Below are positions 9,569 to 29,706 of a stretch of 40,100 nucleotides of DNA, piece by piece. Source of the stretch: Lacunisphaera sp. Its GTDB lineage: Bacteria; Verrucomicrobiota; Verrucomicrobiia; Opitutales; Opitutaceae. Numbering within the stretch: the first letter of the stretch is position 1; every line of letters begins with the position of its first letter. The translations under genes and the position numbers were made by a program. The stretch covers positions 1 through 40,100 of the forward strand of contig JAQSDJ010000324.1 in the NCBI GenBank assembly GCA_029945855.1, written 5' to 3'. Under the pieces are notes generated by a model. The model saw nothing but the letters and a program-made list of their open reading frames with translations, did no database searches and was not told the DNA's origin.

Positions 9569-10123
9569 TCAATTCTCGCAGCAGAGCAGCTGGCGGCGCT
9601 CGTAGCCGATGACCTGGCCGAGCCGGTCGAACTCGAAACGGCAGCAGGCCTGGAGCTTTTTCCGCAGCATCGCCCGGCCGCGGCGCACGCGCGACTTCAC
9701 CGCCGTGAGCGACAGGTCGAGCCGCAAGGCGATGCGCGCCAGCGGCAGGCCTTCCAGTTCCGCCAGGCGCACCGGCTCGCGATAGGCCGCCGGCAGCTCC
9801 TCGAGGAATTTCCTCATCGAAACCATCACCCGCGCGCGCATCGCCGCCGTCTCGTCGGGACTTTCCCCCGCGATGGCCGCCGGCAGCTCCTCCGTCGGAT
9901 GCTGGCGCCGGTGGTGGTCGATGATGGTGCCCCGCGCGATCTGATAGAGCCACGCTTCCAGCTTCGTGTCGTCGCGCAACGTGGCGCGCGAGCGGTAGAC
10001 CTTGAGCAGCGTTTCCTGCACGAGATCGTCGGCGAGGGTGTCGTTGCGCACCCGCCGGCGGATGAAAGCGCGGAGCCGCGGCGCGAAGTCCAGGACGCCC
10101 GTGTTGAAGGTGCGCGCGGTCAT
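9569..10123 (-). CDS. ECF sigma factor, SigZ-like, with cysteine-pair tail
   Basis: This 184-aa alternative sigma factor of the extracytoplasmic-function type would redirect RNA polymerase. Region 2 reads LADDLVQETLLKVYRSR followed by LEAWLYQIARGTIIDHHRRQ. Region 4 reads LPAAYREPVRLAELEGLPLARIALRLDLSLTAVKSRVRRGRAML. The tail CCRFEFDRLGQVIGY...CCEN has two Cys pairs (160/161 and 181/182), a layout recalling Bacillus SigZ. Start 10123 was chosen because its ATG overlaps the arsN2 stop (ATGA), implying translational coupling; a longer start at 10165 would lie deep inside arsN2. No anti-sigma gene follows. As the last gene of the arsenic operon it may autoregulate it, with the cysteines possibly binding arsenite; this is inference. 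Confidence 0.9.
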   Translation of the reverse strand: MTARTFNTGVLDFAPRLRAFIRRRVRNDTLADDLVQETLLKVYRSRATLRDDTKLEAWLYQIARGTIIDHHRRQHPTEELPAAIAGESPDETAAMRARVMVSMRKFLEELPAAYREPVRLAELEGLPLARIALRLDLSLTAVKSRVRRGRAMLRKKLQACCRFEFDRLGQVIGYERRQLLCCEN

Positions 10124-10575
10124 GGCTTCACGGTCCGACGCATGCAGATCGAGCCGGCGGGGCACAGGTGGCTGAATTCCGGCGTCGCCGCGATGGCCGG
10201 TGGCACCGTGGAGCGGTCGATCTTCTGGAACCAGCGTTTGGCGAAAAAATGTTCCGCCGTGTTGGTCAGCAGGTAGAAATACCGTACCCCGTGCCGCTGG
10301 GCCTCGTCCTCAAGGCGCCGCAAGAGCGCGCCGCCGAGACCGTCCCCCTGCCAGCCCGGGGCCACCACGAGCGAACGCAACAGCGCCTCGTCCCCGTGTC
10401 GTTCGAAGCCGACGGCCCCGACGACCGCCCCGTCCTGCCGGGCGACGAGGAAATTCGCCAGATGCCCCGCGAAATCCTCGTGCGGCAGGCCGGCCGACTG
10501 GAGGAGCGCCCGGATGGCCGGCTCATCGGCCGGCCGGGCTGCCTCGATGATGAGGGGATCGCGCGCCGCGGACAT
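10120..10575 (-). CDS. arsN2: ArsN2-type GNAT acetyltransferase of arsenic operon
   Basis: This is a 151-aa GNAT-fold N-acetyltransferase. The acetyl-CoA loop is VVAPGWQGDGLGGALL (about residues 70-85). The ArsN2 signature follows: YFYLLTNTAEHFFAKRWF, then IDRSTVPPAIAATPEFSHLCP and CM near the end. Relatives are encoded in ars operons; the related ArsN1 detoxifies arsinothricin or phosphinothricin by acetylation, while the substrate of ArsN2 is not firmly established. The gene lies 3 bases after arsM and overlaps the sigma factor start by 4 bases, so the three genes form one tightly packed operon. The two cysteines of the tail are retained. Confidence 0.9.
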   Translation of the reverse strand: MSAARDPLIIEAARPADEPAIRALLQSAGLPHEDFAGHLANFLVARQDGAVVGAVGFERHGDEALLRSLVVAPGWQGDGLGGALLRRLEDEAQRHGVRYFYLLTNTAEHFFAKRWFQKIDRSTVPPAIAATPEFSHLCPAGSICMRRTVKP

Positions 10576-19883: not shown

Positions 19884-20009
19884 CCCGGCCCGGATCCCTC
19901 AAAAGTCACCGCCCCTCATGAATTTGCGACACCACGCGCCAGGAATCGCAAAATCTGCCGGGCAATAAAAGTTGCCGACAGCGCTCTCACCGTTATCCCT
20001 CTCCCCCGA

Positions 20010-20375
20010 ATGAAACGCCTCGTCTGGCTCCTGCTTTTCGCCTTCGGCACGCTGCTCACGCAGGTGCCGGTGGTGGAGTCGCTGGCTTCGGCGGATCAGT
20101 GCGCCTGCGGCGCGGAGTGCGGCGGCCAATGTGGCATGCCTGGCTGCCTGCCGCCCGTCGCGCCCACGGTGCCGCAGTTTGTCAGTGACCGCGCGGTCAC
20201 GCTGGTGCGCCCGGCCGTGAAACGCGATGTGCTGCTCGGCGAGCGTCCGGCCAACCGTTATTTTGCTGTTCCCTTGGCTTCGGTGAAGTCCCGGCCGGCC
20301 CTCCGCGCGACGGATCGGGCGGCGTCTGCTGCGAGTGTTCCCCTGTTCCAGGAACATTGCAGCCTGCTGATCTAA
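20010..20375 (+). CDS. Small secreted cysteine-rich protein next to metal efflux genes
   Basis: This 121-aa protein is not recognised. An N-terminal signal peptide (KRLVWLLLFAFGTLLTQVPVVESLASA) is followed by a compact cysteine cluster CACGAECGGQCGMPGC (Cys at 31, 33, 37, 41 and 46), then a mostly polar region with one further Cys near the C-terminus (EHCSLLI). The cluster right after the signal suggests periplasmic metal binding. It lies just upstream of cusB but on the far side of the metal promoter at 20451, so it is not obviously in that transcript. No clear promoter motif of the same kind precedes it. A role as a periplasmic metal chaperone or sensor is only an inference from position and cysteines. 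Confidence 0.68.
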   Translation: MKRLVWLLLFAFGTLLTQVPVVESLASADQCACGAECGGQCGMPGCLPPVAPTVPQFVSDRAVTLVRPAVKRDVLLGERPANRYFAVPLASVKSRPALRATDRAASAASVPLFQEHCSLLI

Positions 20376-20450
20376 GCCCATACCCTCGGTGTGCCCGCAC
20401 GCGATTTTTCGCGCGGTTTCCTTCCTTTGCCCCGCGCCCGTCGGCGCCGG

Positions 20451-20477
20451 TGTAAGATTTTCCGCCCACGTCCGTCT
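20451..20477 (+). promoter_or_regulatory. ECF-type promoter 1 of the metal regulon (cusB operon)
   Basis: TGTAAGATT (20451-20459), 13 bases, CGTCT (20473-20477). It is identical in both elements and in spacing to the sites at 26309 and 27060. Measured from TGTAAG the gap to CGTCT is 16 bases, the normal ECF sigma spacing. The cusB ATG begins 14 bases after CGTCT, so the leader is only a few bases long. Confidence 0.88.
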
Positions 20478-20491
20478 CCCCCTGCCTGCCC

Positions 20492-22138
20492 ATGAAAACT
20501 TTCCTTTCCCTTTTCTTCCTCCTCCTCGGTCCGGTCCTCGCGGCTGAACCCGCCGGCCACACCCCGGTCTACCAGTGCCCCATGCACCCGTGGATCAAGT
20601 CCGACAAGCCGGACGCCAAGTGCACCATCTGCGGCATGGCGCTCGTCGCCGCCACCGCCTCACCTGCTGCCGGCTCCGACCAGCCCCTCGATCCCAACCT
20701 CGTCACGCTCACCGCAACCCAGGTCGCCGTCACCGGCGTGCAGACCGCCCCCGTTACCCGCGGCCCGCTCGTCCGCACCCTGCGCGTCAACGGCGTGATC
20801 GACGACGACGAGACCCGCCACCGCATCCTGGCCGCCCGTGTGCCGGGCCGCGTGGAAAAACTCGGCGTCAACTTCGTCGGGGCCGAGGTCCGCGAGGGCG
20901 AGATGCTCGCCACCATCTACAGCCCCGAGATGCTCACCGCCCAGCGCACCTACGTGGAGCGCCTCCGCGCCGGCAACACCGCCTTCACCGCCTCCGAGCG
21001 GGCCGCCGCCCGCGAGCGCCTGCTCGAGCTCGGCCTGACCGCGGAGGAGATCCGCATCCTCGAGGCCACGCTGGAACCGACCGCCATGGTCAACGTCCGC
21101 GCCCCGATGTCCGGCACCGTCGTGTCGCGCGCCGTCTACGAGGGCCAATATGTCGGGACCAACGACCGGCTCTTCGAGATCGGCGACTTTTCCCGCATGT
21201 GGTTCGTCTTCGACGTCTATGAACCCGACCTGTCGTGGGTCCGCCCCGGCCAGACCGTCGAGCTAGCCTTGCCCTCGCTGGCCGGCCGGATTTTGACCGC
21301 CCCCGTTGCGTTTATCGATCCCAACCTTAATGAAACGACCCGCACCGCCCGTGCCCGCGTCGTCCTCGACAACCCCGACCGCCAGCTGCTGCACCGGCAG
21401 ACCGGTATCGCCGCCGTGAAGGTCGAGTCGCCCGCCACCCTGCTCGTGCCGCGTTCGGCCGTGCTACAGCACGGCGGCAAGCCCGTGGTTTTCGTCGCCT
21501 CGGCCAATCGCGCCTACGCCGCGCGCGAAATCCAGCTCGGCCGCGTCGGCGACACCGCCGTCGAGGTCCTCGCCGGTCTCGCGGAAGGCGACCAGGTCGT
21601 GACCCAAGGCGCGTTGCTGCTCGATGGCCAGGCCCAGCTGGCCCACGCCGCCATCGGTGGCGGCGGACACGATCACGGCACACCCGCGCCCAGCAAGATT
21701 TCCGCCGCCGAGCCGGAACACGACGCAGCCGCCTATGCGCTGCTCAAGACCTTGGCCCTCTCCTCCGCCGATGCGGCCGCGACCCTCGCGGCCGACGATC
21801 TGCCCGGCTACCAGAAGAACCTGACCGCCCTCCGCGGCGCCTTTGCCGCCTACCTCACCGGCTATGCCCCCGCCGCCCGCGGGCCGCTGGCCGAGTTCAA
21901 GGATGCCCTCGTCGACGGCCCCGACCTGCGGGCCGCGCGCCGCGCCTTCGAGCCGTTCAGCACCGCGCTGGTGGACCTCGCCCGCTCACAGCACGTCCCT
22001 CACCGGGAGAAACTGCATGTCTTCCAATGCCCGATGACCCCCGTGCTCGGCACCGGCCGCTGGCTCTCCCGCAGCGCCGACCTCCGCAATCCCTTCTTCG
22101 GCTCCGCCATGCTCGAGTGCGGCGAGGAACTGAACTGA
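20492..22138 (+). CDS. cusB: CusB-like RND periplasmic adaptor with two metal-binding domains
   Basis: This 548-aa membrane-fusion protein would link the inner-membrane RND pump to an outer-membrane channel for Cu(I)/Ag(I) export. Order of parts: a signal peptide (residues 1-18); a heavy-metal-binding domain YQCPMHP...CTICGMALV (27-52); the barrel-sandwich and hairpin (GRVEKLGVNFVGAEVREGEML, MFV-type NVRAPMSGTVV); a beta-barrel region; a His-rich linker GGGGHDHGTP; and a C-terminal domain with FQCPMTP, NPFFGSAMLECG. The last part resembles the DUF3347 copper-binding domain. Having metal-binding modules at both ends is richer than E. coli CusB and may replace the separate CusF chaperone. It opens the operon driven from 20451, ten bases before cusA. 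No outer-membrane factor gene is present in the window. Confidence 0.93.
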   Translation: MKTFLSLFFLLLGPVLAAEPAGHTPVYQCPMHPWIKSDKPDAKCTICGMALVAATASPAAGSDQPLDPNLVTLTATQVAVTGVQTAPVTRGPLVRTLRVNGVIDDDETRHRILAARVPGRVEKLGVNFVGAEVREGEMLATIYSPEMLTAQRTYVERLRAGNTAFTASERAAARERLLELGLTAEEIRILEATLEPTAMVNVRAPMSGTVVSRAVYEGQYVGTNDRLFEIGDFSRMWFVFDVYEPDLSWVRPGQTVELALPSLAGRILTAPVAFIDPNLNETTRTARARVVLDNPDRQLLHRQTGIAAVKVESPATLLVPRSAVLQHGGKPVVFVASANRAYAAREIQLGRVGDTAVEVLAGLAEGDQVVTQGALLLDGQAQLAHAAIGGGGHDHGTPAPSKISAAEPEHDAAAYALLKTLALSSADAAATLAADDLPGYQKNLTALRGAFAAYLTGYAPAARGPLAEFKDALVDGPDLRAARRAFEPFSTALVDLARSQHVPHREKLHVFQCPMTPVLGTGRWLSRSADLRNPFFGSAMLECGEELN

Positions 22139-22148
22139 GGCGCCCGCC

Positions 22149-25100
22149 ATGATCAACCGCCTCATCCACTGGTCGCTGCACAACCGGTTCATCGTGCTCG
22201 CCGGCTTCCTCGCGCTCTGCGCGTGGGGCGTCGTCGCGCTGACCCGCGTGCCGATCGACGCCATCCCCGATCTCTCGGAAAACCAGGTCATCGTCTACGC
22301 CGACTGGCCGGGTCGCTCGCCGCAGGAGGTCGAGGACCAGATCACCTACCCGCTGAGCGTCTCCCTCCAGGGCCTCGCCGGCGTGAAGACCGTGCGCGCC
22401 ACCTCGATGTTCGGCTTCTCCTTCCTCACGGTCATCTTCGAGGACAAAGTCGACACCTACTTCGCCCGCACGCGCGTGCTGGAGCGGCTCAACTCGCTCG
22501 GCGACCTCCTCCCGGAGAGCGTGGTCGCCCGCCTCGGCCCCGACGCCACCGGCCTCGGCTGGATCTACCAGTATTACCTCAAGGACGAATCCGGCACGCA
22601 GGATCTCGGCTCGTTGCGCTCGTTGCAGGACACCTATGTCCGCTACCAGCTCGCCGCCGTGCCCGGCGTGGCCGAGGTCGCCAGCCTCGGCGGTTTCGTG
22701 CGCCAGTGGCAGGTCGAGGTGTCGGCGCTGAAGCTCCGGCAGTTTAATGTGACCCTCGGCGAGGTGATGGACGCCGTCGCCGGCAGCAACCGCAACATCG
22801 GCGGCAAGACCATCGAGGAAAACGGCGCCGAATATATCGTGCGCGGCATCGGCCTCGTGCAAAACGCCGCCGACCTCGAATCCATCGCGCTCCTGCCGCG
22901 CAACGGCACGCCGCTTCGCCTGAGCGACGTCGCCACGGTGCGCATTGGCGGCGACTTCCGTCGCGGCACGCTCGACGTCAACGGCCGGCAGGTCGTGGGC
23001 GGCATCGTCGTCATGCGTTACGGCGAAAACGCGTGGCAGGTCATCTCGGACGTGAAGGCCCGGCTCGCCGCGCTGGCCCCCGGGTTGCCCCCGGGCGTCA
23101 CGGTCGAGCCGTTCTACGACCGCAGCGACCTGATCGGCCGCGCCATCAACACGCTCAAGCATGCGCTGATCGAGGAAATCCTCCTCGTGACGCTCGCGCA
23201 CATCCTGTTCCTGTTCCACTTCCGCAGCATTCTCATCGTCACGTTGCCGCTGCCGGCCTCGATCCTGATCTCGTTCATCCTGATGGACCGGTTCGGCATC
23301 CCGTCGCACATCATGTCGCTCACCGGCATCGCCATCTCCATCGGCGTGCTGGTGGACGCCGGCATCGTGATGACGGAAAACGTCATCCGCCATTGCGAGC
23401 GGGCCGAGGAGGAATTGAAACGCCGGCTCACGCCGCCCGAGGTGTTCCGGCATACCCTCGAAGCCGCCACGCAGGTCGGCCGGCCGATGTTCTTCTCGAT
23501 GCTGGTCATCATCCTGGCCTTCGTGCCGGTGTTTCTGCTCACCGGGCAGGAAGGCAAGCTCTTCCACCCGCTCGCCTTCACCAAGACCTTCGCCCTGATC
23601 GGCGCCGTGCTGCTCGCGGTGACCGCGGTGCCGGTGTTCTGCACCATCCTCGTGCGCGGCCCGTTCAAGCCCGAGAGCGAGAACTGGCTGATGAGAGGCC
23701 TGCTGAAAATCTACGATCCCGTCCTCGACTGGGCGCTGACCCACCGCAAGACCGTGCTCGGTCTCGCCGTCGCCCTGCTGGTGGCGTCGTGTGTGGTCGC
23801 TTTCGGCCTGCCGCGCGGCGTCAACGCCCGGCTGCCCGATGCCGTCGCCCGCCACACGCAGGGGTTCGGCAGCGAATTCATGCCGACACTCGAGGAGGGC
23901 TCGCTGCTTTTCATGCCGGTCCTGCTGCCCGCCACCTCGCTCACCGAGGTCCAGCGCATCATGGCCTGGCAGGACAAGGTCATGAGCGAGCACCCCGCCG
24001 TCGCCTCTGTCGCGGGCAAACTCGGCCGCGCCGAGACCGCCACCGACCCCGCGCCGGTCGAGATGATCGAGACCACGATCATGCTGAAGCCCGAGAGCCA
24101 GTGGCCTGCCGGCACGACCAAGGCCTCCATCATCGCCGATCTCTCCGCGAAACTCATGAATGTGCCCGGCTACGTGCCCGGCTTCCTCCAGCCCATCGAG
24201 AACCGCGTCCTCATGACGAGCACCGGCATCCGCGCCCAGGTCGGCGTCAAGATCTTCGGCGACAACCTCGACGCCCTCCAGCAGAAGGCCTTCGAGATCG
24301 AGCGGGTGGTCAACCGCGTCCAGGGCGCGACCGGCGTCGCCCCGTCCCGCGTGCAGGGCAAGCCTTACCTCGAGATCGCCGTGCGCCGCGAGGACCTCGC
24401 CCGCTACGGACTGGGCGTGAAGCAGGTCTATGAATACATCGAGGCCGGCCTCGGCGGCGCCACCGTCGGCACCACCTTGAAAGGCCGCGAGCGCTGGCCC
24501 CTGCAGGTGCGGCTCGAACAGGCCGACCGCGGCGACATCGACAAGCTCGGCGAACTGCCCCTGCCCACGCCGTCCGGCGCGCTCGTGCAGCTCCGCCAGG
24601 TGGCCGACATCAAGCGCACCGTCGGTCCCAACGAGATCGCCAGCGAGAACGGCCGACTGCGCGTCTTCGTGCAGGCCAACGTGGCCGACCGCGACCTCGG
24701 CGGCTTTGTGAATGACATCAAGGAGCGCATCGAACGGGAGGTGCAACTCGATCCCGGCATGTCCATCGAGTATTCCGGCCAATACGAGCACCAGATCCGC
24801 GCGCGTCAGACGCTCATGTATGTGTTTCCCGCCGTCATCGGCATCATCTTCGTCCTGCTCGTGATGACCTTCCGGTCTGTGCCCGAGGCGGCGCACGTCC
24901 TCCTCGCCGTGCCGTTCGCCCTCACCGGCGGCGTCATGCTGCAGGCGCTGCTCGGCTACAACTTCAGCGTCGCCGTGTGGGTCGGCTACATCGCGCTCTT
25001 CGGCACCGCCATCCAGACCGGTGTGGTCATGGTGGTTTACCTGGAGGAGGCCGTGGCCAAGAAGCGCGCCGATCTCGGCGGCGCCTTCGACCGCGCCGCC

Positions 25101-25361
25101 CTCCTCGCCGCGATCAAGGAGGGCGCCCGCCTCCGCCTGCGCCCGAAGGTCATGACCGTCGCCACCACCGTGGCCTCCCTGCTGCCGATCTTCTGGTCCG
25201 ACCGCACCGGCGTCGAGATCATGCGCCCGCTGGCGGCGCCCGTCGTCGGGGGCATGCTCTCCAGTCTCGTCCACATCCTCATCGTCACCCCGGTCATCTT
25301 CGCCTGGCTGCGGGAACGCCACCTCGACATTCGGCGAAATCCTGAAATCCTCCCTCCATGA
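22149..25361 (+). CDS. cusA: CusA/CzcA-type heavy-metal RND efflux pump
   Basis: This 1070-aa inner-membrane proton antiporter belongs to the HME-RND class. The N-terminus MINRLIHWSLHNRFIVLAGFLAL is the first membrane helix. VPIDAIPDLSENQVIVY is the classic HME signature, and GIAISIGVLVDAGIVMTEN near residue 400 is transmembrane helix 4 with the proton-relay aspartate. MPTLEEGSLLFMP near residue 580 and GVEIMRPLAAPVVGGMLSSL near the C-terminus complete the family pattern. The methionine-rich MPTLEEGSLLFMPV region and the CPM-type adaptor upstream favour Cu(I)/Ag(I) over zinc/cobalt, but the ion cannot be proved from sequence. The gene follows cusB by 10 bases; its TGA overlaps the next ATG. 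Confidence 0.95.
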   Translation: MINRLIHWSLHNRFIVLAGFLALCAWGVVALTRVPIDAIPDLSENQVIVYADWPGRSPQEVEDQITYPLSVSLQGLAGVKTVRATSMFGFSFLTVIFEDKVDTYFARTRVLERLNSLGDLLPESVVARLGPDATGLGWIYQYYLKDESGTQDLGSLRSLQDTYVRYQLAAVPGVAEVASLGGFVRQWQVEVSALKLRQFNVTLGEVMDAVAGSNRNIGGKTIEENGAEYIVRGIGLVQNAADLESIALLPRNGTPLRLSDVATVRIGGDFRRGTLDVNGRQVVGGIVVMRYGENAWQVISDVKARLAALAPGLPPGVTVEPFYDRSDLIGRAINTLKHALIEEILLVTLAHILFLFHFRSILIVTLPLPASILISFILMDRFGIPSHIMSLTGIAISIGVLVDAGIVMTENVIRHCERAEEELKRRLTPPEVFRHTLEAATQVGRPMFFSMLVIILAFVPVFLLTGQEGKLFHPLAFTKTFALIGAVLLAVTAVPVFCTILVRGPFKPESENWLMRGLLKIYDPVLDWALTHRKTVLGLAVALLVASCVVAFGLPRGVNARLPDAVARHTQGFGSEFMPTLEEGSLLFMPVLLPATSLTEVQRIMAWQDKVMSEHPAVASVAGKLGRAETATDPAPVEMIETTIMLKPESQWPAGTTKASIIADLSAKLMNVPGYVPGFLQPIENRVLMTSTGIRAQVGVKIFGDNLDALQQKAFEIERVVNRVQGATGVAPSRVQGKPYLEIAVRREDLARYGLGVKQVYEYIEAGLGGATVGTTLKGRERWPLQVRLEQADRGDIDKLGELPLPTPSGALVQLRQVADIKRTVGPNEIASENGRLRVFVQANVADRDLGGFVNDIKERIEREVQLDPGMSIEYSGQYEHQIRARQTLMYVFPAVIGIIFVLLVMTFRSVPEAAHVLLAVPFALTGGVMLQALLGYNFSVAVWVGYIALFGTAIQTGVVMVVYLEEAVAKKRADLGGAFDRAALLAAIKEGARLRLRPKVMTVATTVASLLPIFWSDRTGVEIMRPLAAPVVGGMLSSLVHILIVTPVIFAWLRERHLDIRRNPEILPP

Positions 25362-25726
25362 AAACCAAATCCGTCCTCCTGCCCCTGCTGGCGCTGCTCG
25401 CCAGTCTCTTCGTCTCCTCCGTGCTTCATGGCGCCGACGCCCCGACCGGCGAACTTATCGCCCCCACCGACAAGGACGCGGCCTGGCTGTCCGAGGCCCG
25501 TGCCGCCTACCCGCTGAAGACCTGCCTCATCTCCGAAGAGGAACTCGGCGGCATGGGCGCCCCCGTCGAATTCATCTACCGCCAACCCGGCCAAGCCGAC
25601 CAGCTGGTCCGCTTCTGCTGCAAGATGTGCGTGCCGAAGTTCAAGAAGGACCCAGCCAAATACCTCGCCCTGCTCAAGTCCGGCGTCAAGACCGAGGCCA
25701 AGCCCGACGCCCACCCGCATCATTAA
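25358..25726 (+). CDS. Secreted YHS/TRASH-like cysteine protein of the metal operon
   Basis: This 122-aa protein has a signal peptide (VLLPLLALLASLFVSSVLHGA) and one small domain: TCLISEEELGGMGAPVEFIY, then VRFCCKMCVPKFKKDPAKYL. The spacing of Cys56 and the CCxxC group (87, 88, 91) with FKKDPAKYL resembles YHS/TRASH metal-binding domains, in which a C...CCxxC set binds copper or another soft metal. The tail DAHPHH adds histidines. The ATG overlaps the cusA stop (ATGA), so it is co-translated with the pump. It is probably a periplasmic metal-binding helper that loads the pump or its adaptor, an inference from gene position. Confidence 0.82.
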   Translation: MKTKSVLLPLLALLASLFVSSVLHGADAPTGELIAPTDKDAAWLSEARAAYPLKTCLISEEELGGMGAPVEFIYRQPGQADQLVRFCCKMCVPKFKKDPAKYLALLKSGVKTEAKPDAHPHH

Positions 25727-25737
25727 GCGTCCCGCCG

Positions 25738-26313
25738 ATGCCCCGCCGCCCCGACCAGCTCGCCGCCGCGCTCAACACGCAACGGAACGCCTTCAAGGCG
25801 TTCCTGGTCGCGCGCGTCGGCAGCGCGGCCGAGGCGGAGGACATTTTGCAGGACGGCCTGCTCAAGGCGCTGCGGCGGGCGGGCGAACTGCAGGACGACA
25901 CCAAGCTCACCGCGTGGTTCTATCAGCTGCTGCGCCATGCCGTGATCGATCACTATCGCTCGCGCGCTGCCGGCCGCCGGCGCGATGATACGCTGGGCGC
26001 GACGCTGGCCGCCCTCGGCGAGGACCTCGCCCCCCCGGACTGGGAAGCCCAACTCTGCACCTGCCTGGGCAGCGTGGTGGACACGCTGAAGCCGGCCCAT
26101 GCTGAACTGTTGCGCCGCGTGGATCTGAACGGCGAATCCGTGCAAGCCGCCGCCAAGGCCCTCAAGATAACACCCAACGGCGCCAGCGTCACGCTGCACC
26201 GCGCCCGGTCGGATCTGCGCGAGAAACTCCGGGCCTTCTGCGGCGCCTGCGCCGACGGAGCGTGCCTCGACTGCGATTGCGCCCCGGTGCCGGAAAAGAA
26301 GAATCGTGTGTAA
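25738..26313 (+). CDS. CorE-like metal-sensing ECF sigma factor
   Basis: This 191-aa sigma factor has region 2 (AAEAEDILQDGLLKALRRA, then LTAWFYQLLRHAVIDHYRSR) and region 4 (LKPAHAELLRRVDLNGESVQAAAKAL, then NGASVTLHRARSDLREKLR). The inter-domain linker contains Cys107-Thr-Cys109 and the C-terminus a cysteine-rich domain with Cys at 168, 171, 176, 179 and 181 (CGACADGACLDCDC). A CxC linker plus a Cys-rich tail is the hallmark of CorE-type (ECF44) factors of Myxococcus, which bind copper, cadmium or zinc directly and need no anti-sigma factor. ATG 25738 was chosen because the upstream extension is a shadow of the preceding gene. It is last in the cusBA operon, so it should amplify its own synthesis. 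Its stop codon lies inside the next promoter. Confidence 0.92.
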   Translation: MPRRPDQLAAALNTQRNAFKAFLVARVGSAAEAEDILQDGLLKALRRAGELQDDTKLTAWFYQLLRHAVIDHYRSRAAGRRRDDTLGATLAALGEDLAPPDWEAQLCTCLGSVVDTLKPAHAELLRRVDLNGESVQAAAKALKITPNGASVTLHRARSDLREKLRAFCGACADGACLDCDCAPVPEKKNRV

Positions 26314-26335
26314 GATTTCGCTCCCCGCTTCGTCT
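26309..26335 (+). promoter_or_regulatory. ECF-type promoter 2 of the metal regulon (Cys-rich small protein)
   Basis: TGTAAGATT (26309-26317), 13 bases, CGTCT (26331-26335), identical to promoters 1 and 3. The TAA within TGTAAGATT is the stop codon of the sigma factor gene itself (26311-26313), so coding and promoter sequence overlap. The start codon at 26360 follows CGTCT by 24 bases. Confidence 0.88.
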
Positions 26336-26337
26336 GC

Positions 26338-26360
26338 TGGAATGAAACCACTTCATTCCA
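26338..26360 (+). promoter_or_regulatory. Inverted repeat ending on the ATG of the Cys-rich protein gene
   Basis: TGGAATGA-AACCACT-TCATTCCA: a perfect 8-bp inverted repeat with a 7-base spacer whose last A is the A of ATG 26360. A near-copy sits at the arsM start with the same spacer length, the same AACCA and the same overlap with the ATG. It may be an operator for a shared regulator or a hairpin near the mRNA 5' end hiding the start codon. Confidence 0.65.
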
Positions 26361-26521
26361 TGACAAAAAACACCATTCCGAACACCGTGCCGCCCTGCGG
26401 CTGCAATCAATGCCTTTGCCGTCGCGGCCCGCGCTGCCGCTGTCACGCCTACAACGCCCTGCTGGCGATCGCTCTCTGGGATTTCGGGCGGGCCATACGC
26501 CGGCAGCGGCCGGCCCGGTGA
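26360..26521 (+). CDS. 53-residue cysteine-rich protein, candidate metal-binding peptide
   Basis: This short gene was not matched to a known family. The N-terminal half carries CGCNQCLC followed by RRGPRCRCH (Cys 13, 15, 18, 20, 26 and 28, His 29): six cysteines in 16 residues, in repeated CxC pairs as in metallothioneins. The second half is an amphipathic helix-like stretch (AYNALLAIALWDFGRAIRRQ) with a basic end. There is no signal peptide, so it is probably cytoplasmic. It has its own regulon promoter 25 bases upstream, which is the main argument that it is real. An in-frame ATG at 26342 would add MKPLHS and give an almost leaderless transcript. A metal buffer or a chaperone for the ATPase is the leading guess. 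Confidence 0.72.
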   Translation: MTKNTIPNTVPPCGCNQCLCRRGPRCRCHAYNALLAIALWDFGRAIRRQRPAR

Positions 26522-26587
26522 CAGCCACTCGGCCGCTTCCTTGATTGCCCCGCCGCCCCGCCGCCGCAGATTGGCCTCGCCTCCGCC

Positions 26588-27049
26588 ATGCCCGCACCCC
26601 GCTTCAAAATTCCTCCCGTGGTGACAGTTCTGCTCATGGGCGGGTTGATGTGGGCGACCGCCTGGGCGGCGCCCGATTTCGGGTTTACGCTGCCTGGCCG
26701 CCGGGTTGGCGTCCTGACCCTGGGTGTCGCCGGTGTGATCATCGCCCTCCTGGGAGTGATTTCATTCCGGCGCGCCAAGACCACCGTCAACCCCCTGCAC
26801 CCCGAAGCCGCCTCGGCCTTGGTGGTTTCGGGCATCTACCGGCTGACGCGGAACCCGATGTATCTCGGCCTGCTGCTGGTCCTGCTCGGCTGGGCGCTGT
26901 TCCTGGCCAACGCCCTCGCCTTCGTCTTCCCCGCCGTTTATGTTCCCCTCATGAACCGCCTCCAGATCCGCCCCGAGGAGAAAGCCCTGGCGGAAAAATT
27001 CGGTCCGGGCTTCTCAGACTATAAATCCAAGGTGCGGCGCTGGCTCTGA
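26588..27049 (+). CDS. Isoprenylcysteine carboxyl methyltransferase-like membrane protein
   Basis: This 153-aa integral membrane protein of the ICMT/phospholipid-methyltransferase group has three to four helices (VVTVLLMGGLMWATAWAA, VLTLGVAGVIIALLGVI, LGLLLVLLGWALFLANALAF). The family core is VSGIYRLTRNPMYLG, followed by the cytoplasmic tail RPEEKALAEKFGPGFSDYKSKVRRWL, in which RNPMY and the E..L...FG..Y..Y..KV.RW pattern bind SAM and the acceptor. Bacterial members of this group are common beside metal and cation resistance genes but their acceptor is generally unknown. It lies 66 bases after the small Cys-rich gene and just before promoter 3, so it is likely in the second transcript of the metal regulon. 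Confidence 0.86.
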   Translation: MPAPRFKIPPVVTVLLMGGLMWATAWAAPDFGFTLPGRRVGVLTLGVAGVIIALLGVISFRRAKTTVNPLHPEAASALVVSGIYRLTRNPMYLGLLLVLLGWALFLANALAFVFPAVYVPLMNRLQIRPEEKALAEKFGPGFSDYKSKVRRWL

Positions 27050-27059
27050 GACGCGCCGT

Positions 27060-27086
27060 TGTAAGATTCATTCCTGCGATACGTCT
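27060..27086 (+). promoter_or_regulatory. ECF-type promoter 3 of the metal regulon (copper ATPase)
   Basis: TGTAAGATT (27060-27068), 13 bases, CGTCT (27082-27086), identical to the two other sites. It lies in the 56-base gap before the P-type ATPase gene, whose ATG is 19 bases after CGTCT. Confidence 0.88.
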
Positions 27087-27105
27087 ACAGGGAAATACCA
27101 CAGCC

Positions 27106-29175
27106 ATGAATCACGCCTCCTCCTCCAACTCCGCTGACGGTCACGGCCATCACCATCACGGTTCAGCGCCCGCCCCCGACCACGCCTCGGCCCCCGACCA
27201 GCCCGTCTACATGGGCCTGCCACATGAACGTTACCTGCGTCCGAAGCTCTATGTCGCCACCGCCCTGACGGTTCCCGTGCTGATCCTATCCATGGGCGAG
27301 ATGCTGTGGCCCGACCTGGTGCACCAGATCACTCCGCGCATGAGCGGGTGGCTGCAGTTCCTGCTGACCACCCCGGTCTTCTTCTGGGCCGGCGCGCCTT
27401 TCATCCGCCGCTGGTGGAAATCCATCCGCGAGCGCGACACGAACATGTTCACGCTGACCGTCACCGGCACCGGGGCGGCGTATTTCTACAGCACCGCGGC
27501 GGTGTTCTTCTGGGCCTCCTTTCCGCCCGCCTATCAGACCCACCACGGCGTGCCGCTCTATTTCGAGGCGACCGCGTTTATCACGACCATCGTGTTGCTC
27601 GGCCAGATCCTCGAGCAGCGGGCGCATGCGCGCACCGACGAGGCCATCCGCGGGCTCATGGACCTGGCACCCAAGACCGCCCACCGCCTCCGGGCGGACG
27701 ACACCGAGGAAGATGTGCCGGTCGACCAGGTGCAGGTCGGCGACCGCCTGCGCGTCCGTCCCGGCGAGAACCTGCCCGTCGACGGTCACCTCGAGGCGGG
27801 CCGCGCCGAGATCAACGAATCCATGCTCACCGGCGAGCCGCTGCCCGTCGTCAAGTCCGCGGGCGAAGCGGTCAGCGCCGGCACGCTCAACACCACCGGC
27901 TCCTTTGTTTATCGCGCGCAGCGCGTCGGGGCCGACACCCTCCTCGCCCAGATCGTCCGGCTCGTCGAGCAGGCGGTCGAGAGCGAGGCCCCGATCCAGC
28001 GGCTGGCCGACCGCGTTTCCGCATGGTTCGCCCCCGTCGTGCTCACCATCGCCACCGTCACGTTCTTCTCGTGGGGCCTGTTCGCCCCGGAGCAGGGCTG
28101 GCTGCCCGGCCTGCTCAACGCCGTCGCCGTCCTGATCATCGCCTGCCCCTGCGCCCTCGGTCTCGCCACGCCCGTGTCGATCGTCACCGGCATCGGCCGC
28201 GGCGCGCAGGCCGGCGTGCTGGTCAAGGACGCCGCCGCGCTCGAACGCCTTGCCGAAGCCACCACCCTGCTCATCGACAAGACCGGCACCTTGACCGAAG
28301 GCCGGCCGCTGGTGGCGCTCATCAAACCGGCCGGAGCCTTTTCCGAGGCCGAGCTCCTGCGTGTGGCCGCCTCGGCGGAATCCGCCAGCGAGCATCCCCT
28401 CGCCCGGGCCATCGTAACCGCAGCGCAGGCGCGCGGACTGATTCTTTCGCCGGCCACTGACTTCATCGCCCAGCCCGGCGCTGGCGTCAGTGCAATCATC
28501 GAAGGCCGTCGCGTTGCGATCAGCCGCGCCCCGGCCGGCTATGAACTGCCCGGCCATCCCTCGGCCACGCTCGTCAGCGTGACCGTCGACGGTCAGGAAG
28601 CCGGTGTGATCGCGCTGGCCGACGCCCTCAAGACCGGGACGGCCGCGGCGATCACCGCTCTGCAGCACCTGGGCCTGAAGGTCTACATGGTGACCGGCGA
28701 TCGCACCGCCGCCGCCCGGCAGGTGGCGGAGCAGCTTGGCCTGGACGGCTTCCATGCCGAAGTGACGCCCGCCCGCAAGCAGGAGCTCGTGCGCGAGCAC
28801 CAAGCGCGGAGCGAGCGCGTGGTCTTCGCCGGTGACGGGCTCAACGACGCCCCGGCGCTCGCCGCCGCCGAGGTCGGCATCGCCATGGGCACGGGCACCG
28901 ACGTAGCCATGCACAGCGCCGGCATCGTGCTCGTGAAGGGCGACCTCGCCGCGCTGGTGCGCGCCGTGCACCTAAGCCGGGCGACGCTGCGCAACATCAA
29001 GCAGAACCTCTTCTGGGCCTTCGCCTACAACATCGCCGGGTTGCCGCTGGCCGCGGGTGCCTTCTACCCGCTCTTCGGCTGGCTGCTCAACCCGATGTTC
29101 GCCGGCGCCGCGATGAGCCTCAGCTCGATCACCGTTGTGTCCAACGCCCTGCGACTCCGCCGCGTCCGCTTGTAG
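27106..29175 (+). CDS. copA: Copper-type P1B ATPase with His-rich N-terminus
   Basis: This 689-aa metal-exporting P-type ATPase pumps Cu(I) (or Ag(I)) out of the cytoplasm. The N-terminus lacks a CxxC heavy-metal-associated domain and instead has a His-rich stretch GHGHHHHGSAPAPDH. Core motifs: TGEP near residue 242, the ion-binding ACPCALGLATP (Cys347-Pro-Cys349), the phosphorylation site DKTGTLT (Asp391), SEHPLARA near 430 and GDGLNDAPAL near 577. The last helices carry YNIAGLPLAAG and MSLSSITVVSNALRLRR, the Tyr-Asn and Met-Ser-Ser pattern of copper (P1B-1) pumps. It has its own regulon promoter rather than sharing the cus operon, so efflux at both membranes is co-induced. Confidence 0.94.
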   Translation: MNHASSSNSADGHGHHHHGSAPAPDHASAPDQPVYMGLPHERYLRPKLYVATALTVPVLILSMGEMLWPDLVHQITPRMSGWLQFLLTTPVFFWAGAPFIRRWWKSIRERDTNMFTLTVTGTGAAYFYSTAAVFFWASFPPAYQTHHGVPLYFEATAFITTIVLLGQILEQRAHARTDEAIRGLMDLAPKTAHRLRADDTEEDVPVDQVQVGDRLRVRPGENLPVDGHLEAGRAEINESMLTGEPLPVVKSAGEAVSAGTLNTTGSFVYRAQRVGADTLLAQIVRLVEQAVESEAPIQRLADRVSAWFAPVVLTIATVTFFSWGLFAPEQGWLPGLLNAVAVLIIACPCALGLATPVSIVTGIGRGAQAGVLVKDAAALERLAEATTLLIDKTGTLTEGRPLVALIKPAGAFSEAELLRVAASAESASEHPLARAIVTAAQARGLILSPATDFIAQPGAGVSAIIEGRRVAISRAPAGYELPGHPSATLVSVTVDGQEAGVIALADALKTGTAAAITALQHLGLKVYMVTGDRTAAARQVAEQLGLDGFHAEVTPARKQELVREHQARSERVVFAGDGLNDAPALAAAEVGIAMGTGTDVAMHSAGIVLVKGDLAALVRAVHLSRATLRNIKQNLFWAFAYNIAGLPLAAGAFYPLFGWLLNPMFAGAAMSLSSITVVSNALRLRRVRL

Positions 29176-29190
29176 GCCGGCGCGTCCCAC

Positions 29191-29218
29191 TGGCTTTTTA
29201 AGGAACCCGGACTATATT
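29191..29218 (+). promoter_or_regulatory. Candidate housekeeping promoter of the small lipoprotein gene
   Basis: TATATT (29213-29218) is a good -10 element. TGGCTT (29191-29196) lies 16 bases upstream and is a poor but possible -35. The ATG follows at 29242. It does not match the metal-regulon promoter. Confidence 0.35.
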
Positions 29219-29241
29219 CCCCGGGTCACCACCGCACTCCC

Positions 29242-29706
29242 ATGACTTTCCACCTGAACCGCCGCCTCATCACCACCTTCATGCTCGCCGCCAGTCTGGG
29301 CTTCCTGACCGGCTGCCAGAGCGTGGACGACCGCATCAAGCAGAAACCCGAGGTCTTCGCCGGGCTCGACGCCGCCACCCAGGACAAGATCAAGCAGGGC
29401 ATCATCGACCTCGGTTACACCGAGGACATGGTCTATCTCGCCCTCGGCGCGCCGGACCAGAAGCGCGAGTCCATCACGGCCGCCGGCAAGTCGGTCACCT
29501 GGATCTACAATACCTACTACACCCGCTATGACGGCACCCAGATGGTAGGCTACCAGCGCCGCGTCTATTACGACCCCTACCTCCGGTCCTACCGGGTCTA
29601 TTATCAGCCCGCTTTCGTCGAGACCTACCGGGACGAGAAGGAAGAGCGCATCCGTGTCGTCTTCAAGGACGGCAAGGCGACCGTGATCGAGCAGTCAAAG
29701 GATTGA
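29242..29706 (+). CDS. Small outer-membrane lipoprotein, BamE/SmpA-like fold
   Basis: This 154-aa protein has a lipoprotein signal (FMLAASLGFL then lipobox LTGC). The mature part begins with a polar linker, then IKQGIIDLGYTEDMVYLALGAPDQKRE, which matches the helix-helix start of the SmpA/OmlA (BamE-like) fold where a small-residue turn precedes GxPxx. Next comes SVTWIYNTYYTRYDG, an unusually tyrosine-rich strand region, and IRVVFKDGKATVIEQ. Proteins of this shape sit in the outer membrane and help assembly or have unknown roles; this one is not a true BamE by sequence. It is outside the metal regulon by promoter, and converges on the phosphatase gene. Confidence 0.78.
   Translation: MTFHLNRRLITTFMLAASLGFLTGCQSVDDRIKQKPEVFAGLDAATQDKIKQGIIDLGYTEDMVYLALGAPDQKRESITAAGKSVTWIYNTYYTRYDGTQMVGYQRRVYYDPYLRSYRVYYQPAFVETYRDEKEERIRVVFKDGKATVIEQSKD

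Follow-up and report, generated by a model that had tools for sequence, protein, structure and literature searches.

Experimental work on CorE-type extracytoplasmic function (ECF) sigma factors had, as a 2021 review states (PMC8103513), been confined to CorE and CorE2 of Myxococcus. M. xanthus CorE (MXAN_3426) belonged to the former group ECF44, and a review groups it with ECF238, CorE itself being unclassified there. As described in part of PMC3107203, residues 181, 184, 192 and 194 of CorE are invariant and residue 189 is the main one for copper. A passage of PMC9023288 gives the tail of the copper-activated CorE as Cys184-x4-Cys-x2-Cys-x-Cys and describes an adjacent Cys pair in the Cd/Zn-activated CorE2. 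Two more such factors, Oter_1731 of Opitutus terrae and one of Verrucomicrobium spinosum, were listed in 2011 by alignment of their tails (PMC3107203, Figure 9 legend); the passages of that paper that concern them give no target promoter for either. Here we analysed a 40,100-nucleotide stretch of Lacunisphaera sp. (Opitutaceae; contig JAQSDJ010000324.1, positions 1 to 40,100), hereafter the window, which encodes a sigma factor of the same phylum and the same type. The gene lies in a metal island where one promoter-like word occurs three times (P1 to P3), and the CorE-like factor encoded at 25738 very probably reads all three sites, as judged from the sequence.

The promoter word and its sigma factor

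The word TGTAAGATT-N13-CGTCT has three exact matches in the window, at positions 20451-20477 (P1), 26309-26335 (P2) and 27060-27086 (P3), all on the + strand. P1 is the predicted CorE-type promoter of a run of cusB, cusA, YHS-like and sigma genes; P2, whose predicted −35 overlaps the sigma stop codon, precedes the gene of a small Cys-rich protein, and P3 is the predicted promoter of a copper ATPase. The distances from CGTCT to the gene starts are 14 nt (start at 20492), 24 nt (26360) and 19 nt (27106), respectively, and the G of CGTC falls 17 bases after AAG. The initial annotation of this DNA had claimed three identical copies, no other copy in the window and a site before each unit of the island, all of which stood in the exact-match scan: nothing else lies within 2 mismatches, and the remaining match at up to 3 mismatches (39701, − strand) has 3, dinucleotide shuffles of the window giving a mean of 0.84 matches at that limit. 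In the organism's own genome (5.0 Mb, 330 contigs) nothing apart from the three sites matches with fewer than 2 mismatches; eight further matches have 2 mismatches, and a reversed-pattern control gave five at up to 2. The looser core TGTAA-N17-CGTC matched nine times genome-wide, compared with 24 times for its reversed control, and thus the fuller word alone is specific in this genome. We also observed, on contigs C47 and C193 of the same genome (loci L220 and L222), two further TGTAAC...CATCGTC places that share the spacer part CCCGCC. A sigma-70 promoter scan of positions 20000-29400 found none, a result of little weight since shuffles also give just 0.7, and the six terminator-like patterns in this interval are not commoner than in shuffles (4.2).

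The sigma factor (191 aa, positions 25738 to 26313, + strand) matches Sigma70_r2 (1.9e-12) and TIGR02937 (56.4 bits, cut-off 42.9), and its region 4 matches Sigma70_r4_2 below the cut-off (2.2e-4); the sigma2 and sigma4 regions are the sole ECF domains found with Pfam and NCBIfam. Its linker carries a CxC motif (C107, C109) and its tail is Cys-rich (C168-x2-C171-x4-C176-x2-C179-x-C181). An alignment of 57 sequences, comprising the window protein and those of 56 named loci in several phyla, shows all seven of these Cys columns to be invariant. The named loci were drawn from 59 of 80 scanned loci, three having been removed for internal stops; among the aligned sequences is a compact tail, C-x2-C-x-C-x3-C-x-C, which takes a gap in the alignment. 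Within Opitutaceae, C176 is replaced by Tyr in L112 and the pattern is lost in L126 and L047 (near contig end). The compact tail was seen in four sigma orthologues (L098, L099, L100 and L104), where it perhaps reflects a different metal preference. In the window protein the tail spacing is the copper-type C-x4-C-x2-C-x-C; a CorE2-type tail was considered and rejected, the protein having no adjacent Cys pair. Among nine open reading frames (ORFs) around the sigma gene, no match to an anti-sigma family was found in Pfam or NCBIfam, three of the nine being without any Pfam match. A structure model gave nine helices (mean pLDDT 85.6) with both sigma domains confident; with pLDDT below 50 at residues 175-182 and a pTM of 0.50, it is uninformative on the metal site. 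Solved structures match the factor just as distant ECF relatives (best 5.6e-08). By its testable features, read from the sequence, the factor is of the CorE type, and its earlier identification as CorE-like is borne out by the linker CxC, the tail spacing and the invariance of the cysteines.

We then looked at the association of word and sigma factor in 252 Opitutaceae genomes. With an E limit of 1e-20 and no more than 13 candidates scored in any genome, a sigma orthologue was detected in 50 of them. The exact word GTAAGATT-N13-CGTCT occurred at 41 sites in 31 genomes (3 sites for the reversed control) and was present in 23/50 sigma-positive genomes compared with 8/202 of the others (Fisher p = 1.4e-12), a genome with a 49-residue sigma fragment (G016, E 5e-12) being counted as sigma-negative. 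Counted by hand, 31 of the 41 exact sites have a sigma orthologue no more than 10 kb away. The 56 orthologue loci, window included, amount to 0.92 Mb, several genomes giving two or three loci; 34 of them hold 50 sites with at least 13 of the 14 consensus bases, when 100 scrambled words averaged 0.03 and never exceeded 1. The spacer is fixed: GTAAG(A/G)T and CGTC are separated by 13 bases in 52 cases and by any other spacer in three (0-2 each). A chance origin of the sites was rejected on these scrambled-word controls and on the uniqueness of the word in window and genome.

Judged by eye, the 58 sites with at least 12/14 bases mostly lie within about 40 nt before cusB-like genes, copA-like genes (His-rich P-type ATPases), YHS-like genes and small Cys- or His-rich ORFs; in some rows of the gene calls behind these sites the longest open frame chosen by the script is out of the true frame. 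A site equivalent to P1 precedes cusB in L045, L046, L053, L080 and L133, with a weaker one (12/14) in L091. Sites before copA-like genes are found in many relatives (for example L080, L086 and L110), and relatives of the YHS-like gene stand behind their own sites in L081, L082, L083 and L095. The TAA within the TGTAAG of P2 doubles as the stop codon of the sigma gene (26311-26313), and the site is written across the sigma stop codon in 14 of the 56 orthologue loci, one of these sites scoring 11/14. The co-occurrence of motif and sigma factor in related genomes, proposed in the initial annotation, is thus upheld by the genome counts, the fixed spacer and the copper-type downstream genes; commonness of the motif at unrelated genes, which that annotation had named as a sign against its proposal, was looked for in the own genome and the 252 family genomes and was not found.

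The promoter word outside the phylum

A scan of named genome contigs, probed with a single conserved peptide, gave 426 loci, of which the best 80 were used, so that it covers a part of the class. Phylum labels were taken from record titles, which left 41 loci outside Verrucomicrobiota once L140 and L170 (no phylum) were set aside. L140 is titled Chloroflexota (KLAP209); its sigma factor is 74-75% identical to that of the window, it has the same P2 and Cys-rich gene, and it is probably a mis-binned Opitutaceae contig. TGTAA-N17-CGTC was present in 29/41 loci: 13/14 in Nitrospirota, 9/9 in Acidobacteriota, 5/6 in Planctomycetota, 2/11 in Myxococcota (one of the two, L209, titled merely Deltaproteobacteria) and 0/1 in Methylomirabilota. 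In 28 of the 41 loci the word lies within 1 kb of the sigma gene, when spacers of 12-16 and 18-22 gave 0-3 loci, so the link between sigma factor and motif first suggested for the window also held, with the same geometry, outside the phylum. The 36 sites fall into 27 spacer-sequence clusters, and therefore most of them are not recent copies of one region. As in Opitutaceae, T and then C tend to precede CGTC (29/36 and 20/36 sites).

About 31 of the 36 sites precede genes for P1B ATPases with a DPVCGMTV (YHS) segment, HMA chaperone-like, cupredoxin-like or Cys/His-rich proteins, these labels having been given by eye from sequence motifs. Six more myxobacterial loci show close forms, TGTAAG-N16-CGTT (four Corallococcus), TGTAAG-N16-CGTA (Archangium) and CGTAAG-N16-CGTC (L191). 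Four of these six sites precede YHS-P1B ATPases, and the two remaining Corallococcus contigs end too near the site for an ORF to be read. No close form was found in the myxobacterial loci L176, L177 and L210, and a de novo word-pair search in the myxobacterial loci returned composition-driven words only. Taken together, these results make it reasonably likely that TGTAA(G/T)-N16-CGTC is a CorE-type promoter word shared by Verrucomicrobiota, Nitrospirota, Acidobacteriota, Planctomycetota and Myxococcota, with cargo that changes, and that unannotated families of Cys-rich microproteins are its metallothionein-like output.

Small Cys-rich proteins and the other genes of the island

The 53-aa Cys-rich protein encoded behind P2 (positions 26360 to 26521, + strand; CGC-x2-C-x-C ... 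C-R-C-H) belongs to a family of 13 aligned members. Its start Met (26360) is conserved, as are the C-G, CxC and CRC motifs and a C-terminal segment, NALLALALWDxxRxxRR; starting at the in-frame ATG at 26342 would lengthen the protein to 59 aa, the conserved Met being that at 26360. In the 252 family genomes (up to 26 candidates scored in each) the family was found in 13, all sigma-positive and all already aligned, and in none of the other 239. The protein did not match a metallothionein model, and no Pfam or NCBIfam family was found at E up to 1. By composition it appears metallothionein-like, and we take it to resemble the SmtA/BmtA-type metallothioneins, which are short and carry CxC and CxxCxC. 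Very Cys-rich, dissimilar short ORFs also stand behind Acidobacteriota sites (L185, 37 aa; L200, 48 aa; L211, 53 aa; L216, 31 aa). A 56-aa ORF with many Cys follows a CorE-type site in L100 (Opitutaceae). When seven Cys-rich proteins were compared with Pfam and NCBIfam, no model was passed, the sole listing being a chance-level IscR match (E 0.14). Small ORFs starting with MNTH or MHRN were also seen behind CorE-type sites in L092, L098, L086 and L091 and possibly represent one or two further small-protein families.

An inverted repeat, GGAATGAA-N5-TTCATTCC (positions 26339 to 26359, + strand; −9.6 kcal/mol, z −5.46), stands immediately before the start codon of the Cys-rich ORF and is a possible hairpin. 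By eye the repeat is visible in 8 of 12 leaders of the Cys-rich gene, with a variable loop and some compensatory changes; it is shifted and reaches into the start codon in L089 and L081, is weak in L129 and absent in L086. When eight leaders were folded, seven gave a hairpin and L086 did not. In the 12-row leader alignment 87.5% of cells are paired and the covariation score exceeds that of all 500 shuffles (500/500); two-sided pair changes number only 2, a value reached by 55 of 500 shuffles, and sliding the alignment by −1 gives a covariation score of 0.188, compared with 0.220. Since loop length varies, an RNA fits better than a dimer-bound operator. With a transcription start 7-8 nt after CGTC, however, the transcript would lack the first bases of the repeat, which may thus be either an RNA hairpin or a DNA site.

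The three target units of the island span 9 kb. The first begins with a CusB-like periplasmic adaptor of a metal RND efflux pump with an N-terminal HMBD (20492 to 22138, + strand; PF16576 2.7e-60, PF19335 3.2e-10, TIGR01730 above cut-off), followed by a metal efflux RND permease of the CusA/CzcA family (22149 to 25361, +; TIGR00914 1064 bits, cut-off 701) and by a small YHS-like protein of 122 aa, probably secreted (25358 to 25726, +; PF04945 E 8.4e-4, below cut-off). These genes and the sigma gene are successive and separated by short gaps or overlaps. Behind the 53-aa gene lies a membrane methyltransferase of the PEMT/ICMT type (26588 to 27049, +; PF04191 2.5e-12), and the third unit encodes a P1B-type copper-translocating ATPase with a His-rich N-terminus and a CPC motif (27106 to 29175, +; TIGR01511 561 bits, cut-off 397). 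Just upstream of P1, positions 20010-20375 encode a Cys-rich protein of 121 aa, which is probably secreted and has conserved counterparts in several relatives; its relative in L089 has its own near-consensus site, TGTAATACT (12/14), 20 nt upstream. Elsewhere in the window, a second ECF sigma factor (9569-10165, − strand) overlaps a GNAT acetyltransferase gene (10120-10575, −).

Proposed mechanism, alternatives and known systems

We propose that RNA polymerase carrying the CorE-like sigma factor would use the three sites as promoters, region 4 reading TGTAAG as the −35 and region 2 reading CGTC(T) as the −10 at the fixed distance TGTAA-N17-CGTC. The factor would be idle without metal. The metal bound by the linker CxC and the C-terminal Cys cluster would be copper, most likely as Cu(II) if Myxococcus CorE is a guide, and the metal-bound factor would gain promoter DNA binding, with no anti-sigma factor required. 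The first unit would then supply the efflux pump and more sigma factor in a positive feedback, the second the small Cys-rich protein, which may buffer copper, and the methyltransferase, and the third the copper ATPase. No motif site was found immediately upstream of the sigma gene, the last of the cusB-cusA-YHS-like-sigma run; autoregulation, if real, would therefore act via P1 at 20451.

Several observations weigh against control of the word by the CorE-like factor. No site with at least 12/14 bases was found in 19 of the 56 orthologue loci, some of which are short contigs. Among the ten loci with a sigma factor of 43-48% identity, eight are without a site (L114, L115, L116, L119, L120, L122, L126 and L127), and the other two have a 12/14 (L118) and a 14/14 site (L125). 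The exact site also occurs in the 8/202 genomes without a detected orthologue. Of these, G157, G172 and G181 are 75-77% complete, G007 and G182 86%, and G151, G176 and G200 93-100%; in three cases the site precedes cusB-like or YHS-like genes (L053, L132 and L133). One of the eight, G007, is of the same genus: its cus operon (L053, 4878-10257) retains P1, the sigma, 53-aa and ATPase genes are absent there, and cusA is directly followed by the gene found downstream of the ATPase in the window. Sites in close relatives are not independent. Outside the phylum, the strict form is confined to two of the eleven myxobacterial loci, and at five of the 36 sites the gene that follows is not copper-looking (2 of 3 sites in L207, 1/2 in L211, 1/2 in L212, and in L209 a small multidrug-resistance-like protein). 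Finally, the −35 of the window reads TGTAAG, when the −35 search of the M. xanthus paper, in the part of PMC3107203 describing it, starts from AAC.

The persistence of the site without sigma in G007 would also agree with the element being bound by a different DNA-binding copper regulator, whether an activator or a repressor, the sigma gene being a passenger of the island. The inverted repeat just downstream of P2 could serve such a second regulator, and a passage of PMC3107203 reports for M. xanthus copA a second, unidentified copper regulator besides CorE. We nevertheless consider this very improbable: like an ECF promoter, the element consists of two boxes in an asymmetric arrangement at a fixed distance, lies close before start codons and is not palindromic, and it is found together with the sigma gene in five phyla whose cargo differs. 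It is harder still to credit that a different ECF factor of the genome reads the motif. The candidate at 9569-10165 (−) is encoded in the same window and is 32% identical to the CorE-like factor over 151 residues; however, the sites track the CorE-like gene across the family, and 72 kb around other ECF genes and weak motif matches contain no TGTAA-N17-CGTC. A second control set (92 kb) contains two, this set including loci fetched for carrying the motif.

If the CorE-like factor reads P1 to P3, the nature of its signal is a separate matter. Copper is quite probably the main one. A different metal (Cd/Zn, to which CorE2 responds) or thiol/oxidative stress is an unlikely signal, with points on both sides: metal specificity is not certain from sequence, the TIGR00914 CusA/CzcA model does not separate metals and, according to a passage of PMC3107203, Cd and Zn weakly activate even CorE. 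However, the tail has the CorE spacing C-x4-C-x2-C-x-C and not the CC-x3-C-x2-C-x-C given for CorE2 in part of PMC9023288, and the ATPase passes a copper-translocating model.

A promoter word readable across phyla would make each CorE-type regulon predictable, and it points to small Cys-rich proteins that have no family model. It also offers a copper-responsive sigma/promoter pair that would need no partner protein. If true, the promoter written across the sigma stop codon, found in a quarter of the Opitutaceae loci, would tie the sensor to its first target. What is newer here is the regulon in Opitutaceae, together with the promoter geometry across the class and the Cys-rich microproteins, CorE-type factors in Verrucomicrobia being already known. 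Among the matches listed, no class-wide CorE-type promoter motif was found by title and start of abstract; priority for such a motif is uncertain, the CorE2 (2016) and ECF re-classification (2021) papers being the likeliest to print one.

Among other systems, CorE2 of M. xanthus has the same architecture as the window factor and differs by its adjacent tail Cys pair, absent here, and its response to Cd/Zn (passages of PMC9023288). OrbS of Burkholderia cenocepacia is also an ECF factor with an on-board Cys-cluster metal sensor, but it is turned off by iron and has a different Cys spacing, as described in part of the same paper. Compared with bacterial metallothioneins, the 53-aa protein has its own C-terminal segment and no match to a family model. 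With M. xanthus CorE the window factor shares the sigma2-sigma4 arrangement, the linker CxC, the tail spacing, the lack of a detected linked anti-sigma factor and, for the window as a prediction, copper-gene targets; CorE has a P1B ATPase and an outer-membrane efflux gene among its own. Unlike in the CorE cargo, no multicopper oxidase was found among the island ORFs searched. The Lacunisphaera system differs further by its phylum, by its cargo of a CusBA-type pump, a YHS-like protein and a 53-aa Cys-rich protein, and by the gathering of its targets in one 9-kb island.

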